A stretch of DNA of 64,000 bases from the NCBI RefSeq assembly GCF_900129725.1, contig NZ_FQWQ01000001.1, positions 1,240,001-1,304,000 of the forward strand, written 5' to 3'. Made by a program: the position numbers and the translations under genes. Origin of the DNA: Chryseolinea serpens (lineage in GTDB: Bacteria; Bacteroidota; Bacteroidia; Cytophagales; Cyclobacteriaceae). Every line of letters begins with the position of its first letter. The stretch's first letter is position 1. The notes below the pieces were generated by a model. The model was not told the origin of the DNA. It saw nothing but the letters and a program-made list of their open reading frames with translations, and searched no databases. Shown one piece after another: positions 689-8,675 of this stretch.

Positions 689-722
689 GTCGGGCGGCCA
701 GATTCGAACTGGCCACCTCATG
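689..722 (-). pseudogene. tRNA 3'-half remnant (T-arm and acceptor strand)
   Basis: Read on the minus strand, this segment holds a T-arm with TTCGAAT loop flanked by GCCAG and CTGGC, then an acceptor-like CGCCCGAC end. The 20 bases at 692-711 are the exact reverse complement of 947-966 in the nearby tRNA-Pro. Upstream on the minus strand no D-arm or pairing anticodon stem can be drawn, so the 5' half is missing. It is either a tRNA pseudogene or an attachment-site scar. It explains the spurious 61-residue frame at 543-728. Confidence 0.6.
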
Positions 723-871
723 ATCCAATGCCCTGTTAAAGTATGAAAATATCCAGCATTCGATTAATTGGCAACTTATTAATATTCAATAATTTATAAC
801 ATAAAAGGAACGCAAAATCCACCGGGTGGCCTGTTTTTTTGTGGTGACTTAGGAGGTATGCGAATAAAATG

Positions 872-895: not shown

Positions 896-969
896 CGGGG
901 CGTAGCGTAGCCCGGTATCGCGCTTGGTTTGGGACCAAGAGGTCGTCAGTTCGAATCTGGCCGCCCCGA
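896..969 (+). tRNA. tRNA-Pro (anticodon TGG)
   Basis: A full cloverleaf can be drawn. The acceptor strands are CGGGGCG (896-902) and CGCCCCG (962-968). The anticodon arm is CTTGG-TTTGGGA-CCAAG, with anticodon TGG. The T-arm is GTCAG-TTCGAAT-CTGGC, with one G-T pair. The discriminator base is A969. The 3' CCA is not encoded. A consensus promoter precedes it and a strong terminator follows. Confidence 0.95.
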
Positions 970-972
970 CAC

Positions 973-1004
973 AAGCCCCGTCACATCTTGACGGGGCTTT
1001 TTTT
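973..1004 (+). terminator. Rho-independent terminator of tRNA-Pro
   Basis: Perfect 11-bp stem AAGCCCCGTCA / TGACGGGGCTT (973-983 with 989-999), loop CATCT, followed by a T run to 1004. It begins four bases after the tRNA end. Confidence 0.9.
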
Positions 1005-1464
1005 ATGACCTTATACTAGCTATAGCGAATCATGCCGGAAATTTTACACCGGCGATACCCAACATCTTTAAAATCCCGTTGCCTCCAGATCGTTATCGAT
1101 GGTCGTAAGGCAGGCATTTTCCAGGAGCGATTTTTTTCTGGACGCTTAAGTTGTGTCTTGCACGGAGTAAAAACCGGTCGCCGGCCTAGATGACCTTCAA
1201 CCCAACCTCGATCCGCAAATCTGACACTTGGCCCATCGGATAGTTTTACTTCTTCATTCCTCCTTAGTGATCATCTACAAAGCGTGGAACCCCGAAATAG
1301 GCACGAGCGACTAGTTCTGGGCTTACTTATCGGCAATTGATAATGGACAAAATCTAGAGTATATTAGTTTCCAAGTCAATCCTAACTTCTTCGTTCGAAG
1401 AAGTTGGATGGCTTTTGCTCTACTGTCCGTTGGTTTTCGCACTTTAAATTGTAGACCCTATCCT
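1005..1464. other. Gap between tRNA-Pro and the TIR operon
   Basis: No confident gene. A 53-residue frame (1032-1193 +, starting MPEILHRRYPTSLKS) is the only protein-like stretch; I do not recognise it and it has no ribosome binding site. No recognisable integrase is present. The segment must contain the promoter of the three-gene operon that follows; a short inverted repeat, CTTCTTCG / CGAAGAAG (1387-1402), lies about 60 bases before the chosen start of its first gene. Confidence 0.4.
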
Positions 1465-2649
1465 ATGAACCCCCGTGCACATCATTATCTGTTTGCCCAT
1501 CGAGAACTACGCGAGATTTTATTTCAAGATCTTTCAGCGTTTGTAAAGTTGACGGAGTCATCATTATTCGGGTCCTGGCTGAGTCGCCTGTGGACCAAAG
1601 TTGGAGACGACGTCTATGCTGGCGGCCTAGGGGCAAAATTACCGGGTACAGCTCTCGCCTTTGAATCCATTGCTGACGGCGGAGCAAGGTACACGCTCAT
1701 TACGCTCCCCACGCCGGAAGCTGTTGTCGAGGTCTTCTTCATCGCAATCGTTGTGTGTGAGCAGCCCTACAAATACTACAGGTATCTGGTCCTGGAAAAA
1801 TGTGAGGAGGGTCGGGTTGGGATTGGCCCCTCAGCAGGTGTACTCTGTGAATGGTTTTCCGACGGTGGACGTCGGAATCATAATTGGTATTTGTCTCCCG
1901 AAAAAGAACTCTTTCACTCGGCGATTAAAGAAATGCACCGGAGAGAAAGAGTACGATTTGAACTTGGTCTGAATTCAACGATGAAGTCGCTGTGGAATCC
2001 GAAAAGGGAGAATAAACCGTCAAAGAATGCGACCGAGGAGGAGGAATTCAGAACGCCGCATATTTACTATGCGATGGTCGCAGTGCCCGAGGCGTTGAAT
2101 GCCTTATTGAATTCTGAGGGGTCATTCCCGAGGGGTGAGCCAGATTTGGCCAAGGCAAGAGAAAAATTGACCGCTAACAAGGCAAAGCAACTCGACAATC
2201 TTCTTGCGCAACAATGGAAACGTGCTCATGAGATTTCCTTCCCCAATACTTCTACTTCAAAATCTTTGCATGCTGAACTGGTTGATCTGACGGTAGGTAT
2301 TTTCCTGCTCATTTCTTTTCCGGAACCCATCGAAGCTCCCGAGCCCTTCTTTATGCTTTGTCCTTTAGATAAGGCATTTGGCAAAAAAACAAACAACGTA
2401 ATCTATCTCGCAGAGCTGCCGAGGGGGAGATCTAATTTCGAAGTTATCATTTCGAGACTTGAAGCCGACAAGGGATATGCGATATTAGGCAGTCTTGAAG
2501 ATTGCACAAAGGATACATTCATTCAAGGAATGAAGGGATTCTTTCAAGGACAGGAATTCGACCAGCCAGCCGGAATTTTGGATCATCTCCAAACCATTGC
2601 GCGAACCTTCGGTGTTCTGAAGTCACTCCAGCCCAAGAAACAAAAGTGA
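1465..2649 (+). CDS. Unknown protein, first gene of TIR/HExxH operon
   Basis: 394 residues from ATG 1465 (MNPRAHHYLFAHREL). A longer frame from 1408 adds 19 residues of unconvincing sequence, so I prefer the internal start; neither has a visible Shine-Dalgarno. I recognise no domain. The protein looks soluble: no signal peptide, one hydrophobic patch (VDLTVGIFLLISFPEP, residues about 275-290) that looks like a buried strand-helix, and a charged linker (KNATEEEEF, about 190-200). The stop TGA shares its A with the ATG of the next gene (TGATG), so the two are translationally coupled and probably work together. It may be a sensor or adaptor of the module (inference only). Confidence 0.75.
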   Translation: MNPRAHHYLFAHRELREILFQDLSAFVKLTESSLFGSWLSRLWTKVGDDVYAGGLGAKLPGTALAFESIADGGARYTLITLPTPEAVVEVFFIAIVVCEQPYKYYRYLVLEKCEEGRVGIGPSAGVLCEWFSDGGRRNHNWYLSPEKELFHSAIKEMHRRERVRFELGLNSTMKSLWNPKRENKPSKNATEEEEFRTPHIYYAMVAVPEALNALLNSEGSFPRGEPDLAKAREKLTANKAKQLDNLLAQQWKRAHEISFPNTSTSKSLHAELVDLTVGIFLLISFPEPIEAPEPFFMLCPLDKAFGKKTNNVIYLAELPRGRSNFEVIISRLEADKGYAILGSLEDCTKDTFIQGMKGFFQGQEFDQPAGILDHLQTIARTFGVLKSLQPKKQK

Positions 2650-4415
2650 TGCGATCAGCAATAAACCCTGCGATTTGCTATTTAGGCGAGCCTGTCACCG
2701 ACAGTTTATTTTCGAAATGGGAGACAACTGTCCTTCCCAGCGAAATCGAATTCGAATTAACCCTAGAGGCCTCCATCTCCAAATACGAGGCTGGCCATTT
2801 TGACGAAGCTAAAAATCTTCTGGGGACGGCACGTTCGATTCTTGCCGAGAAAAGCCCGGATCGGGTTATTTCCGGATTGGCAAAACTAGCTAGAGTGTAC
2901 TGCCTCACAAAGGACTTCCCAAATGCTTGCTTGTGTATTCAGGATTCACTAAAAAAATGTCATCCCTGGCAAACTGAATCACCGCCAAGTGCCGATCATG
3001 AAACGCACCAACCTAGCGACTGTTATCTTCCGGAAGTTCTATCGCTCCTACATATTCATTCAGTGCTGGTGGCAGAATCAGGAGGACCAATGGAAGCCAT
3101 TGAGCCACTTGAGATGGTGGGCGAGTATTATGGAGCGCGAAATGAGCTTGAGTTATATGCAAAAATCCTAAACGATCTTGGCGTTGTGTACTTCCTTGCC
3201 GGCAAGCCAATAAAGGCGGAAGCGACGCTAAGAGATTCCATTCGATTGTTGGATATTATAGGCCTACCTCAAGATTCGAAATTGGTTTCTGACAATCTGT
3301 CGGCGATGCCAGGATTGAACGATCACTTTCCTTTACAGGATCGTGAGGATGAAAAAGATGATATAAACACCATACGCACAAAGCTTGAGCAAGAAGTGAC
3401 AAGACAGTATCAGGTTTTAGCAGATGGATTGCTGGCCGACATGCTGCTTAACAAAGCCGAAGACGATGACAAAGTTAACAACATTGTTTGGTGGTACCAC
3501 TACCTTCATTCAAATGAGGACAAAAAGAAGCAACCAAGATTCGACGATCCACTTTTTATTCAATTTCGAAACCGGTTTATTCAAGCTATTGCTTTGCGGA
3601 AAATTCGCAGGATATCCAGAACGACTCTCGCCGAATACCAACTTGATCTTTTTGGCTCCAAAGTAAAATGCTGGGAGGAGGGCAAAATAAATCGTCTATT
3701 GGCAAGCTTTGGGTCTTCGCTACGAGTTCTCATGATTAGTAGCGATCGCTTTCGCCAGCATGCATTAAGACGTTACATTAAAAAGACCCTGTTCGATGAA
3801 AACACTCCCGGAGAACTGGTTGCCGATGGAAGGTTTGTGCTGGGTGAAATTGGGCCGATCAGCGCTTTTAACAGGGCTTCCGTTATTCATTTTATACACG
3901 AATATGCAAAAGCACCCTATTTTCCCCTGGGAGTTGAAGGTTTTTGTGAAGAGTCTCAAGGCCGCGTGGTCATAAGAAAGGGCATTGAATCGAGAGGCTT
4001 TCGGTTTGATCGTGACGTTAATTTTGATTTCCGCGTCACGTTGATGCACGAGTACACGCACTTTCAATTTAGACTTAGACAAGGTGCAGAAGTCCTATCT
4101 TCCTGGCATCATGTACTTCGAGAAGACCTCTGCAGATTTACGCGATCGGTTCGCTCGGCGCAGGAAATTGTTGACAATCTAAGATTGTCTTACCTCAGCA
4201 AACGGAATATTCACGCTCCTGATCATCCAGGTCAGGACGATTTTGAAGAGGAACTTGAGGAATTCGATGCCGAGAAAACGATACGAGATTACCCCCAAAT
4301 CGCGCGCGACCTGAAAGCGCTTTGCATAAAAGGCCTAATTATCGAAAAACCAAAACTGCATTACAAATGCACCTTATTTAATGACAAAAAGGTATGGAAT
4401 CTGTCAGTAGCATAG
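2649..4415 (+). CDS. TPR-like protein with HExxH metallopeptidase motif
   Basis: 588 residues from ATG 2649, which overlaps the previous stop by one base; the frame is open further upstream but that part overlaps the first gene and is not protein-like. The N-terminal half (about 25-230) has paired amphipathic helices with TPR-like spacing, for example the segments SKYEAGHFDEAKNLLGTA and LGVVYFLAGKPIKAEATL. The C-terminal half has HEYTH at residues 467-471 within a hydrophobic helix, the zinc-binding HExxH signature of zincin metallopeptidases. A third ligand is not certain; acidic residues follow in REDL and in the acidic tract EEELEEFDAE. No signal peptide, so it is likely cytosolic. Its 3' end overlaps the TIR gene by 22 bases. 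A repeat-domain sensor joined to a protease is a common design in bacterial conflict systems. Confidence 0.8.
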   Translation: MRSAINPAICYLGEPVTDSLFSKWETTVLPSEIEFELTLEASISKYEAGHFDEAKNLLGTARSILAEKSPDRVISGLAKLARVYCLTKDFPNACLCIQDSLKKCHPWQTESPPSADHETHQPSDCYLPEVLSLLHIHSVLVAESGGPMEAIEPLEMVGEYYGARNELELYAKILNDLGVVYFLAGKPIKAEATLRDSIRLLDIIGLPQDSKLVSDNLSAMPGLNDHFPLQDREDEKDDINTIRTKLEQEVTRQYQVLADGLLADMLLNKAEDDDKVNNIVWWYHYLHSNEDKKKQPRFDDPLFIQFRNRFIQAIALRKIRRISRTTLAEYQLDLFGSKVKCWEEGKINRLLASFGSSLRVLMISSDRFRQHALRRYIKKTLFDENTPGELVADGRFVLGEIGPISAFNRASVIHFIHEYAKAPYFPLGVEGFCEESQGRVVIRKGIESRGFRFDRDVNFDFRVTLMHEYTHFQFRLRQGAEVLSSWHHVLREDLCRFTRSVRSAQEIVDNLRLSYLSKRNIHAPDHPGQDDFEEELEEFDAEKTIRDYPQIARDLKALCIKGLIIEKPKLHYKCTLFNDKKVWNLSVA

Positions 4416-5386
4416 AGATTTCCCTGAATGAATTAATATGTCATTCGTGTTCCGAGGACCACAAACATGATGTTAAGGAAACCTTTCTTCCTTATCAGGC
4501 AACTGGTGTGACAATAGAAGGCGGAATGGACACACCGCCGGTGAAAGTTACCGTCGATGTGCAAAGAATTTCATGGCGGCGGCAAAGTGAGGGACGCTAT
4601 TCGGCTTTCGCATTGATGACATTCCCGTGTTTGGATTGTGATAAGACGCATACCTTTGAACATCAGTTAGAGGCGCCACGAGTCTTCATCCGCGACACAT
4701 TCAAATGCAAGACCTGTGGCAATAAACTTGAAGTCGAGGATGAAAACATCGAGTACTATGACTCATCCGAAAAAGGCCCTCATGTCGAAGTAACGGCGAA
4801 ACTTGTTTGTCGCAACTGTGCAACGGGCGCGGTTGAGAATTTTGACATTCCCAGTCCGAGCTTTTCAAGCTTGAAACATCAGGATCATATCGACATTGAT
4901 CTGGCCAAATCAAGTTTAAGAGCATCAAAAAACAGTCAGTCTGCCCCGTCCTTGCACTCCTATCGCTTCGATATCGCGCTATCGTTTCCAGGCAAGCGGC
5001 GGGATTACGTAAAAAGTGTTCGTGAAGAACTGAAGCGACTCAAACCCGATCTGAATATTTTTTATGATGATGACTTTAAGGCTGAACTAGCTAGGCCGAA
5101 TCTTGACTCGTATTTGCAGGATATATACATGAAACATTCCAGATTGATTGTGATTTTCCTTTCACCAGAGTATGAGCAAAGTGAATGGTGCGGACTGGAG
5201 TGGAGGGCAATCAGGGACCTCATAAAGAAGAAAAATACATCCACCATAATGCTCATGCGATTCGAGGAGGTTGAAGTCCCAGGCCTGTTATCTATCGACG
5301 GATATATCAGCCTAAAGAATAACTCTCCTGAAATTGCGGCGATGTTGATTGAAAGAAGGTTTGATTTTGAGTTTTTGAAAGAGTAG
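4394..5386 (+). CDS. Zinc-ribbon protein with C-terminal TIR domain
   Basis: 330 residues. Residues 190-325 form a TIR domain: strand A FDIALSFPG (192-200), YVKSVREELK helix, the IFYDDDF segment, SRLIVIFLSPEY (249-260), and SEWCGLEWRAI, where E269 sits at the place of the catalytic Glu of NAD-cleaving TIR enzymes. The N-terminal half has four CxxC pairs (C16/C19, C79/C82, C105/C108, C139/C142), which fits two zinc ribbons. No membrane segment. The start overlaps the upstream gene by 22 bases, so the three genes form one operon. Known bacterial TIR proteins deplete NAD on phage sensing; that role here is inference. The TIR assignment is strong, the function of the ribbons is not known. Confidence 0.88.
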   Translation: MESVSSIEISLNELICHSCSEDHKHDVKETFLPYQATGVTIEGGMDTPPVKVTVDVQRISWRRQSEGRYSAFALMTFPCLDCDKTHTFEHQLEAPRVFIRDTFKCKTCGNKLEVEDENIEYYDSSEKGPHVEVTAKLVCRNCATGAVENFDIPSPSFSSLKHQDHIDIDLAKSSLRASKNSQSAPSLHSYRFDIALSFPGKRRDYVKSVREELKRLKPDLNIFYDDDFKAELARPNLDSYLQDIYMKHSRLIVIFLSPEYEQSEWCGLEWRAIRDLIKKKNTSTIMLMRFEEVEVPGLLSIDGYISLKNNSPEIAAMLIERRFDFEFLKE

Positions 5387-5462
5387 CCCGTCAAGCTGTA
5401 CCCCAAAACTCGATCGTGATCCTCCTTGAGTCATTTCGATTAGTGTCCACTTATACCCACTA

Positions 5463-8400
5463 TCACTTCATGTACAGTATCCGACTCGTTGAAATCGATG
5501 TATCCGTTTGTATGCAAAGAAAATATATCCCGGCACGCAAAAAATGCTCTGGAGTCCAGTGTAGGGTGTGTACTCCAGCCGGTAGCAGTTGGCTGAATTC
5601 GGATCCTGTTTTCATTCCCTTGTCATCATAAATTGTCAAATGAACGTTGCTTTGATGAACCAACTCAAAGGTAATGGTTGTCGAAATAAAGAACGGATTG
5701 GGATACAGGCCTACATTTTCCAAAGGTTCCATTTGTTGTTCTATACCTGTTACCTCCTGGACTTCTACGGAAATGAGACCCTGGTCATCTTCACTCTCAA
5801 CCCCGTTATCGGGAGTTGAATCGGGGTCACCCTGATCGCTGGCGGATATTTCTGCCACGTTGGTAGCGAGGCCCGCCTGCAGCGTGGTGGCTAAGATGGT
5901 AAGGGTGGCATTATTTCCCAGGCTCAGCGCGCCTACTGTCCAGATACCGGTGGTTGCATCATAGCTACCTGTACTTGCCGTAATGTTGTCAAAGCTCAAA
6001 CCTATCGGAGCGGCATCCTTCACGGCTATACCTGTGGCGCCAGCAGGGCCTTTGTTTGTTAAACTCATGGTGAAGGTCACCTGTTCTCCTACGGTCAGGT
6101 TAGTTTTATCGGCTTGCAGGGTGAGCTCCAGATCAGCTACGGTTCCAAAGAACAAGCAGGGTGAAAATTCACTGGTATTATTGGCCGGATCGGTGGCTGT
6201 CGCGGTAATGAAAGCGCCATCGGGAACAGTAGTATTGCTGAGATCAACCGAAAACACAGCGTTGCCTGCGTTATCCGTTGTGACTTGTTCGAAGCCGAGG
6301 AAGGTCTCTCCTTCTCCAAATCCAGAAGCGTTACATTTCGCATTGGAAAAAAATTCCAGGCGAAAGACGTTATTGGGTGTACTATTAAGCGATCCCTGGA
6401 TGTTGGTGTTGCCACCGCTGGAACTTACCTGACTCAGCAATGGAAAGTTCTGCAGGTTGTTCGTTCCCATATCGGCATCACCCGCATCATTGGCCGTGAT
6501 GCCATCATTGCCGAGGTCAATGCCAAGCCCAAGATTTTCAGATATGCTGTTTCCCAGGATAGAACCCGTGCCGTTTCCCGCCAGGGCCAGGGCTGTGCCA
6601 TTCGCCGTAAACGTATTGTTGTTCACCGTAGCTACGCCTTGTTGCTGTGTGAATACCCCTGCAACGCTATTATCCGAAATGGTGTTGTTTGTCAGTGTAG
6701 CCTCTGCGTGATCCATTACGTTCACGCCAACCTGATTCCCTGAAACGGTATTGCTCTTAACATTGGCCTGAGTACCACCACCAAGTTCGATCCCATAGGG
6801 ACCATTGTTCGTGATGGTGTTTTCAAGAACGCTGAATTTGAGTTGGCCATCGAATAGAAAAAGTCCCCCGTCGAGATTGCCATTAATAAGGTCCTTTTCA
6901 AAGTGAGCGCGTAACAGATCTAACCGGGTTGATCCATTTATAATTCTAAACCCCGCTCCTCCGTTCAACTCGGCCCTTGACTGGTTTGCTTGCAAACTAA
7001 ACTGGCCGCCCAGCTCACCGAAGAGTTCCAGCCGCGTTCCATCTTTTCCATTGCTTTTACTTGTCGTATTGAGAAAGGCGTAGGCAAGCTCTCCTTTCAC
7101 CGTGGCCTTGATGCCAACGCCATCCAGTCCGTTTCTGTCATACACTTCGCCGGTAACGGTCACCGTCGCGAATACATTCTTTTCGATTTCGGCAATGTAT
7201 CTGAATCCTGCCTCCGTATGGAGTTCCCAGGTGTTCGTGCTGAAGTTTTTTGTGCCATTCGATCGGATGACAAGGCTCCCACCGGTGGCTCCCAGGTTAG
7301 CGAAATTTCCGACGACATTCCAATTGATGTTGCCTTTGAGAGACTCTTCAAATTGCACTCCCTTGCCATTTTCGCTATGGTAATTATTGAGGTATTCTAT
7401 ATTTATGGTTCGCCCCTCCCCGAAAGTCAACTTGGTTCCGATCCTCATTTTGCCCTCAAATCGGTTAGCCTTGATATTGTAGACGCCATCCGCGTTCAGG
7501 AAGGCGTCGATACCAACGCTGTCTATGTTTTCCAGTAGGTTACCCTCGATGGTGATCAGCTTTCCACGGTGAAGAATTCCTACCAAAAACTTGGATCCTG
7601 TTCCGTCCTTCCCAATAAAATTGCCCATCACCTTGATCCCTTGCGAAAGGCTGCCCTGAATGGTGACGCCATTCTTGACACCGGCTATTTTATTGCCTCT
7701 ATTCTCCTGCGTACTTCCCACTGAAATGTCCCGGCCATCTTCTATCAATACTCCTCCCTTTGCATTCGCCAAGACATTCTGTTCCAGGAAATCAAGACCG
7801 ATTAAATTTCCTTCCAGTCTGTTGTTTGGTGCTCCGCTACGACTACTCCCCGATACATTTGGATCTCTACCCAGAATGCGGATGCCATACCCTTCATTCC
7901 CCGATATAATATTCCGGAGTAAACCTGCTCCCCCGACGACATTGTCCGGAGTGTCTTCAATGAAAATCCCGTCGCCACCGTTCCCTTTGTCTTGTTTGGC
8001 GGTGACATCTGTTCCAATTTAGTTAGACTCCAGGCGGTGTCCGCCTTCTCCGGGCGGAGGTGTACCGGAAATATAGATGCCATGAGAAGAAAAGCTATGG
8101 ATGACGAAGAAACTGATATGACAATTGCCCCCCAGCAATCGAAGTCCAATGGCGTTGTTTCCTGCCATACTCCCATCCAATTCAATCCGGCCTACGGCTT
8201 CTGGTGGACTGCCTGAATTGAGGCCCTGAATATTGACGGCACCAAGGATGGGTGGCAAAGCTCCCAGGCCGGTACTTCCTACCTTGATGATGACGCGCTC
8301 CAATCCCAGGGCCTTCGTATCAATATTAAAGGAAATCGTATTCAGGTCCAGGTGGCGGTTCGCATTGTGATTTTGGATCGCTGCTCTGAACGTACATTGA

Positions 8401-8675
8401 TCGCCCGGTGTATTCGGGTCGGTATCACATTTATTATCATCACCACCCCCACCAGCATCCGGATCCTCTTCATCGCCGGGCATATTGACGGTAAAGGATT
8501 TTCCGGTCAGCACCGATTCCGGCACTGATCCCGAGCTTTTGACGGGCGTGACGAAGTAGGCCAGGAGTACGAATACATAAAATTTCCATTTACATACTAC
8601 AACGCCGCCAACTTCCTTAATGATAAGAAAAGATCCCAGCCGCTGGAAATACGGTGGTTGTAAATTGAATGACAT
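5463..8675 (-). pseudogene. Secreted beta-helix T9SS protein interrupted by one TAA
   Basis: Reading from ATG 8675 there are 218 codons, then TAA at 8021-8019, then the same frame stays open to TGA at 5463: 1070 positions in all. The stop falls in SN-stop-IGTD, while sister repeats read NLIGLD and NFIGKD, so one base change (for example TTA to TAA) explains it. Order of parts: signal segment (KFYVFVLLAYFV), CSLREA-like motif CTFRAAIQNHN, parallel beta-helix repeats, DUF11-like domain (ADLELTLQADKTNLTVGE), and a C-terminal type IX sorting domain (VGLYPNPF ... GIYFL). A strong SD (AGGAGGA, 8679-8685) precedes the start. An internal restart at 7772 would lack a signal peptide. It converges on the TIR gene. 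Confidence 0.85.

Follow-up and report, generated by a model that had tools for sequence, protein, structure and literature searches.

A candidate TIR-effector immune operon with undescribed partners beside a tRNA-Pro gene of Chryseolinea serpens

Described TIR and protease systems and the Chryseolinea trio

TIR domains recur in bacterial antiphage systems (excerpt of PMC10952713). In type IV Thoeris, N7-cyclic ADP-ribose (N7-cADPR) activates a caspase-like protease, with the TIR protein acting before the protease (excerpt of PMC12847820). Precedent for protease-activated effectors is also provided by nuclease-protease proenzyme pairs (Hachiman, AVAST and others), in which the protease gates the neighbouring effector (excerpt of PMC12799240), and the conflict systems surveyed in another paper include actinobacterial ones for peptide processing in which zincin-like peptidases are coupled to AP-ATPases, some with a TIR domain (excerpt of PMC7159879). 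We analysed a stretch of 64,000 nucleotides (nt) from Chryseolinea serpens, hereafter the window (C10:1240001-1304000 of a genome of 8.36 Mb in 10 contigs), in which three overlapping plus-strand genes (genes 1 to 3, the trio, at 1465-5386) lie beside tRNA-Pro(TGG). With confidence and doubt about evenly balanced, we read the trio as an acquired immune operon with a TIR effector and undescribed partners, in which genes 2 and 1 would sense and switch the NADase of gene 3. A new antiviral system is plausible. The operon layout, a TIR domain with a conserved glutamate, a set of CxxC pairs and a polymorphic location can be regarded as established at the level of sequence; defence use is likely by analogy, given the company of some TIR relatives and the general role of bacterial TIRs, and we further infer NAD loss and a phage trigger.

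The three genes are tightly joined, genes 1 and 2 by TGATG at 2647-2651 and genes 2 and 3 by an overlap of 22 bases, and the coordinates reported for this same-strand series in a preliminary description of the locus were confirmed (Table 1). For each gene, the annotated frame has the best local codon usage of the three same-strand frames. The start of gene 1 is uncertain because an in-frame ATG is also present at 1408, from which a protein of 413 amino acids (aa) would be read. Promoter and terminator scans at the trio returned matches at chance level only, and a Bacteroidota-type promoter pattern was not found upstream of it.

Table 1. Coordinates of the trio and of associated features in the window
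Feature	Position	Strand	Description
tRNA-Pro(TGG)	896..970	+	3′ end bounds the trio-bearing segment on the left
Partial tRNA-Pro copy (3′ half), inverted	692..726	-	35-nt arms 89% complementary
Segment unmatched in G839 (same genus; region compared)	971..5462	+	trio and about 490 nt upstream
Gene 1	1465..2649	+	394 aa; orphan without a family; may instead start at 1408
Gene 2	2649..4415	+	588 aa; TPR-like N-terminal part, C-terminal HEYTH; putative zinc metallopeptidase
HEYTH codons	4047..4061	+	gene 2 residues 467-471
Gene 3	4394..5386	+	330 aa; N-terminal part with four CxxC pairs, C-terminal TIR (about 190-325)
Glu269 codon	5198..5200	+	WCGLEW, catalytic-type TIR glutamate

Gene 3 shares with the NADase-type TIRs of bacteria its TIR_2 match (1e-10) and the conserved WxxxE glutamate, and differs from them by the four CxxC pairs in its N-terminal half. 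With type IV Thoeris, the trio has in common a TIR and a protease (putative in the trio) encoded in one operon; however, the Thoeris protease is caspase-like, whereas that of the trio carries HExxH, has no PADLOC match and is accompanied by a third, orphan gene. The gating of an effector by its neighbour is only proposed for the trio, and the proenzyme pairs, as given in the excerpt of PMC12799240, consist of a trypsin-like protease and a metallo-beta-lactamase (MBL)-type nuclease, unlike the trio. The arrangement of the actinobacterial zincin-like/AP-ATPase systems, in the excerpt of PMC7159879, also differs from that of the trio. Membership of Thoeris and of the cyclic oligonucleotide-based antiphage signalling systems (CBASS) was dropped because the defining proteins are missing: ThsA and ThsB are not recognisable (the only PADLOC match in the trio is that of gene 3 to PDC-S66, at 0.0015), and neither a cyclase nor a cyclic-nucleotide receptor was matched in the trio or in ten nearby proteins. 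Searches of the open-access PubMed Central (PMC) literature for such an operon showed none among the titles and abstract openings listed.

Type IV Thoeris also serves as the model for a reversed order of events (excerpt of PMC12847820), in which the TIR protein would sense infection and an ADP-ribose signal would activate the gene 2 peptidase, leading to degradation of cell proteins. That one operon encodes both a TIR and a putative protease is in keeping with this order, but no nucleotide-binding domain was recognised in gene 2, which has neither a caspase-like nor a PADLOC match, and the sensor-like CxxC part sits on the TIR protein; we consider the reversed order quite improbable.

Gene 3 and its TIR subfamily

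Gene 3 scores above the curated cut-offs of two Pfam families, TIR_2 (PF13676; 1e-10, 42.6 bits vs 28) and TIR (26 bits vs 21.3). The catalytic-type glutamate E269 noted in the preliminary description is present in WCGLEW, and the conservation of this residue, the lack of which would have counted there as a refutation, was borne out: position 269 is E in 17/17 TIR relatives found without motif selection, a count that excludes 80 genome-contig loci and 2 viral loci picked by a pattern containing Glu269. It is likewise E in all 101 aligned rows, many of which were pre-selected for this E. Judged from its sequence, gene 3 likely encodes an NAD-cleaving TIR protein. Its best single-sequence match among solved structures is a plant TIR (0.021), and a profile of eight sequences of the TIR subfamily matched no solved structure at E 0.01.

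The CxxC pairs of gene 3 are located at positions 16, 79, 105 and 139, all within the first 187 residues, and four such pairs in this region arose in 0/20,000 shuffles. The region probably forms two zinc ribbons. The earlier designation as a zinc-ribbon TIR fits these pairs, but the zinc-ribbon-like matches of the N-terminal part were all below cut-off (best DUF6431, 0.0011). Among 101 other non-TIR parts of TIR relatives, at least two CxxC pairs occur only in L014 (four pairs, C-terminal) and L078 (two pairs); in these comparisons, an N-terminus with four pairs is nearly unique to gene 3. This N-terminus had no match in plasmids and one weak match among the open reading frames (ORFs) of 99 TIR-related loci.

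Searches with the TIR domain gave relatives in 17 plasmid records (the best with about 55% identity), 8 of the 295 further genomes drawn from the phylum, 2 viral contigs, and genome contigs, where 116 were confirmed and 80 kept. The comparisons indicate that this is a TIR subfamily spanning several phyla with exchangeable partner domains. When the non-TIR parts were cut off and clustered (102 parts, gene 3 included), they fell into groups of 44 and 22, smaller groups and singletons, one of which is gene 3. The two largest groups consist of N-terminal domains for which the members scanned, L024, L084 and L078 from the first and L035 from the second, gave no Pfam match; the domain of the 44-protein group is about 150 aa long and fused to TIR in several phyla, and its three scanned proteins matched Pfam in the TIR part only. 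A Pfam scan of ten representative architectures placed Roc-COR-LRR (L033), Ras/Roc (L029), CBS (L087) and subtilase (L004) above cut-off, and NACHT/NB-ARC (L041) and a squalene-cyclase-like domain (L011) below it. The subtilase-TIR fusion, located on a Rhizobium plasmid (L004, 4540-6495), shows a peptidase joined to this type of TIR in one chain. It resembles the trio in combining a peptidase (putative in the trio) with the same TIR subfamily, and is unlike the trio in being a single chain with a serine peptidase and fewer than two CxxC pairs.

In four loci from Bradyrhizobium and Mesorhizobium (L002, L035, L036 and L040), a TIR gene with an N-terminal domain of about 209 aa directly follows a CBASS cyclase and a Cap4-like gene. 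It lies 23-27 nt behind a 489-aa gene that matches the PADLOC model of a CBASS endonuclease effector (4/4), with Pfam SAVED and Cap4 domains in both of the two proteins submitted, and the gene preceding the 489-aa gene matches oligonucleotide-cyclase models, again in 4/4. These TIR genes, which are possibly accessory genes of CBASS, belong to the same subfamily as gene 3 (50-53% identity over the domain), whereas their N-terminal domain is another one and neither a cyclase nor SAVED was matched in the trio. The subfamily as a whole is not shown to be linked to known defence genes, since CBASS-linked loci amount to 4/100 TIR ORFs and no listed defence family exceeded three matches among the 101 upstream neighbours (214 neighbour ORFs; 25 of 149 families listed). 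Among the rows listed, HExxH was present in 0/40 genes directly upstream of a TIR relative, some of these being very short ORFs. C. serpens itself has a second gene of the same TIR kind (L019, 1468-2490; G000:C3, near the contig end), 36% identical over the domain; its start lies within the final codon of the preceding gene, which we read as tyrosine-recombinase-like.

The partner genes 1 and 2

As the preliminary description had it, gene 1 belongs to no recognised family: Pfam, PADLOC, NCBIfam and PHROGs gave no significant match. Single-sequence AlphaFold models of gene 1 and of gene 2 each had a predicted local distance difference test (pLDDT) score of 35. The N-terminal part of gene 2 likely consists of helices resembling tetratricopeptide repeats (TPR). 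The match to TPR_12 is below the curated cut-off both for the whole protein (1.5e-5) and for the N-terminal part (1.6e-6, 28.7 bits vs 30.1); TPR-like helices are nevertheless likely because of the E-value of the latter, so that the earlier reading of gene 2 as TPR-like is probable, albeit weak.

The HEYTH reported at residues 467-471 of gene 2 was confirmed. HExxH arises in 942/20,000 shuffles of protein 2 (4.7%), and the motif alone is therefore not strong, so that the peptidase reading needs other support. A match of the C-terminal part to Tox-MPTase2 touches the motif without being significant (E 0.076), and family scans recognised no significant peptidase family, no caspase-like match and no nucleotide-binding domain. 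E492 follows H471 by 21 residues, a spacing also found in HExxH-E peptidases; guessed from this spacing only, E492 is a possible third zinc ligand. Gene 2 is treated here as a putative zinc metallopeptidase. The chance frequency of the motif and the lack of a significant peptidase family match speak for a scaffold model, in which gene 2 has no peptidase activity and serves, through its TPR-like helices and together with gene 1, as a sensor or scaffold that clusters the TIR protein, HEYTH being accidental or structural. This model is unlikely in our view, given that the weak Tox-MPTase2 match lands on the motif, that E492 is spaced as in HExxH-E peptidases, and that a further protein of the same phylum combines TPR with HExxH, though without significant similarity to gene 2. 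The latter protein (L111, 1-2421), a TPR protein with its own HEYAH, lies in another genome of the phylum and was reached through a weak match of gene 1. Its match to gene 2 (E 0.032) is not best aligned TPR to TPR and motif to motif, and it was not counted as a homologue, being alike in plan and not in sequence; L111 does show that a TPR protein elsewhere in the phylum can carry HExxH.

Homologues of genes 1 and 2 were sought in overlapping genome draws, those of 296, 241 and 98 genomes for gene 2 including C. serpens, and the single-sequence, pattern-based scans of large collections reach close relatives only, so that distant ones may be missed. Gene 2 retrieved only itself from 296 genomes of the phylum and from 98 relatives (5 of the same genus), itself and two weak matches from 241 genomes of the order, one weak match from 16 genomes holding TIR relatives, two weak matches from 299 genomes of the phylum of a Bradyrhizobium genome (G528), and nothing from plasmids, phages, viral contigs and genome contigs. 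Gene 1 retrieved itself and one weak match both from 292 genomes of the phylum and from the 98 relatives, and nothing from plasmids, phages and viral contigs, genome contigs not having been scanned for it. Neither gene was found in the 5 same-genus genomes, which were searched for these two genes only. At E up to 1 (BLASTP, phmmer --max), neither had a match to any ORF of 60 aa or more from 99 TIR-related loci, that is, the 103 such loci less four from the C. serpens genome itself. The weak matches (L104-L108, L111 and L137) cover short stretches only and are not convincing homologues: none of those to gene 2 has HExxH, L104 has several matches to the TPR region of gene 2, L105 and L106 appear unrelated on reading, and L137 has no BLASTP match at E 1. 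Of the homologue search for all three proteins that was envisaged at the outset, the TIR part thus yielded relatives in several phyla, but genes 1 and 2 yielded none that is convincing.

The tRNA-Pro slot and the proposed function

The trio was probably acquired horizontally and occupies a variable slot, as seen from the content of the same site in one same-genus genome, G839. The flanks are common to both genomes at 79-94% identity per piece: the left one is shared (79-88% per piece) as far as window coordinate -1164, the right one from 5463 onwards (94% over 3.6 kb, then 86%). Between them, the place of the trio is taken in G839 by unknown genes together with a PadR-like regulator and a permease. 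Of the proteins encoded in the G839 slot (L133, 14154-19930), one is a MacB/FtsX-like permease and three match no Pfam family significantly; a weak PADLOC CARF-HEPN match (0.0047) was obtained for one slot protein. The tRNA segment at 845-970 is 98% identical to G839 and inverted relative to the flanks, and the sharing stops at the tRNA 3′ end. The partial copy at 692-726 includes 20 bases identical to the G839 tRNA, in the orientation of the latter. The site looks like one of recurrent rearrangement and insertion. Direct copies of the tRNA 3′ end were observed beside the same tRNA in G843 (L119) and G842 (L120). The position next to a tRNA gene had been said to fit a mobile island, and the boundary at the tRNA 3′ end and the other content in G839 agree with this, but neither an integrase nor bounding direct att-like repeats were noticed at the slot, the second tRNA copy being inverted.

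The GC content at third codon positions (GC3) of genes 1/2/3 is 0.49/0.43/0.48, whereas 46 nearby genes have a mean of 0.654 (standard deviation 0.068). By itself, composition does not prove acquisition, since low GC3 is not unique to the trio; one of the neighbours with a lower value is a membrane-protein gene in the same variable slot. We read the upstream and downstream genes as housekeeping or metabolic. The gene of a secreted protein to the right of the trio (5463-8675, minus strand) is possibly broken in the window, where it comprises ORFs at 5463-7772 and 8019-8675, whereas G839 has a single ORF of 1068 aa.

A place in a defence island could not be upheld: the locus is not recognisable as one because its neighbours have no PADLOC match, neither the ten nearby genes at E 0.001 nor the adjoining membrane-protein gene at 0.05. 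The trio could also be an acquired cassette that uses a TIR enzyme outside defence, for example in stress response or competition, which would suit the recognition of relatives for the TIR part only and of no defence gene near the trio. We regard this as rather improbable, tRNA slots being frequent carriers of defence cargo. TIR domains, too, are found repeatedly in antiphage systems (excerpt of PMC10952713).

In the immune operon that we favour, gene 3 would be the effector, its N-terminal CxxC region holding the protein in check or sensing, and its TIR domain would cleave NAD+ once released or clustered, so that the infected cell is stopped. Gene 2, with its TPR-like part and probable HExxH zinc peptidase, would form the sensing and switching part together with gene 1. 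In the simplest version, a triggered gene 2 would cut or remodel the N-terminus of gene 3; this peptidase action on gene 3 is more tentative than the immune use. The complete proposal is of an immune system not described so far: a TPR-zinc peptidase, with an orphan partner, would gate a TIR NADase via proteolysis of a double zinc-ribbon N-terminus, so that a metalloprotease would switch NAD depletion. Taken as a whole, this proposal is tentative and unlikely.

Several observations weigh against the trio being an acquired immune operon. Neither gene 1 nor gene 2 has a convincing homologue in the searches made, so that neither recurrence of the trio nor conservation of HEYTH counts in its favour; PADLOC matched neither gene 1 nor gene 2, and its only match for gene 3 is PDC-S66. 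The frequency of HExxH in shuffles, the absence of PADLOC matches in the ten nearby genes and of an integrase among the slot ORFs, as read, and the small numbers of listed defence families upstream of TIR relatives point the same way, as does the finding that 2/18 TIR relatives of other search origin belong to the 44-protein group, whose partner domain is not a recognised one. With regard to acquisition, 2/1/2 of the 46 nearby genes have a lower GC3 than gene 1/2/3, and the right-hand gene common to G839 is also low (0.51-0.53). The notion of an undescribed defence operon, with which the preliminary description began, therefore stands in part: the NADase-like TIR with its conserved Glu, the exchangeable partners and four CBASS-linked loci of its subfamily, and the polymorphic tRNA location support it, but the partners gave no convincing homologue and the locus is not a recognisable defence island.

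If the complete proposal is correct, a zinc metalloprotease would be added as a switch of TIR NADases beside the reported links to serine- and caspase-like proteases. It would also follow that cassettes known from one genome only can hold immune operons overlooked by recurrence-based surveys. The analysis further points to a modular TIR subfamily, whose members are found behind CBASS operons and in Roc-COR-LRR, NACHT-like and subtilase-fused proteins.

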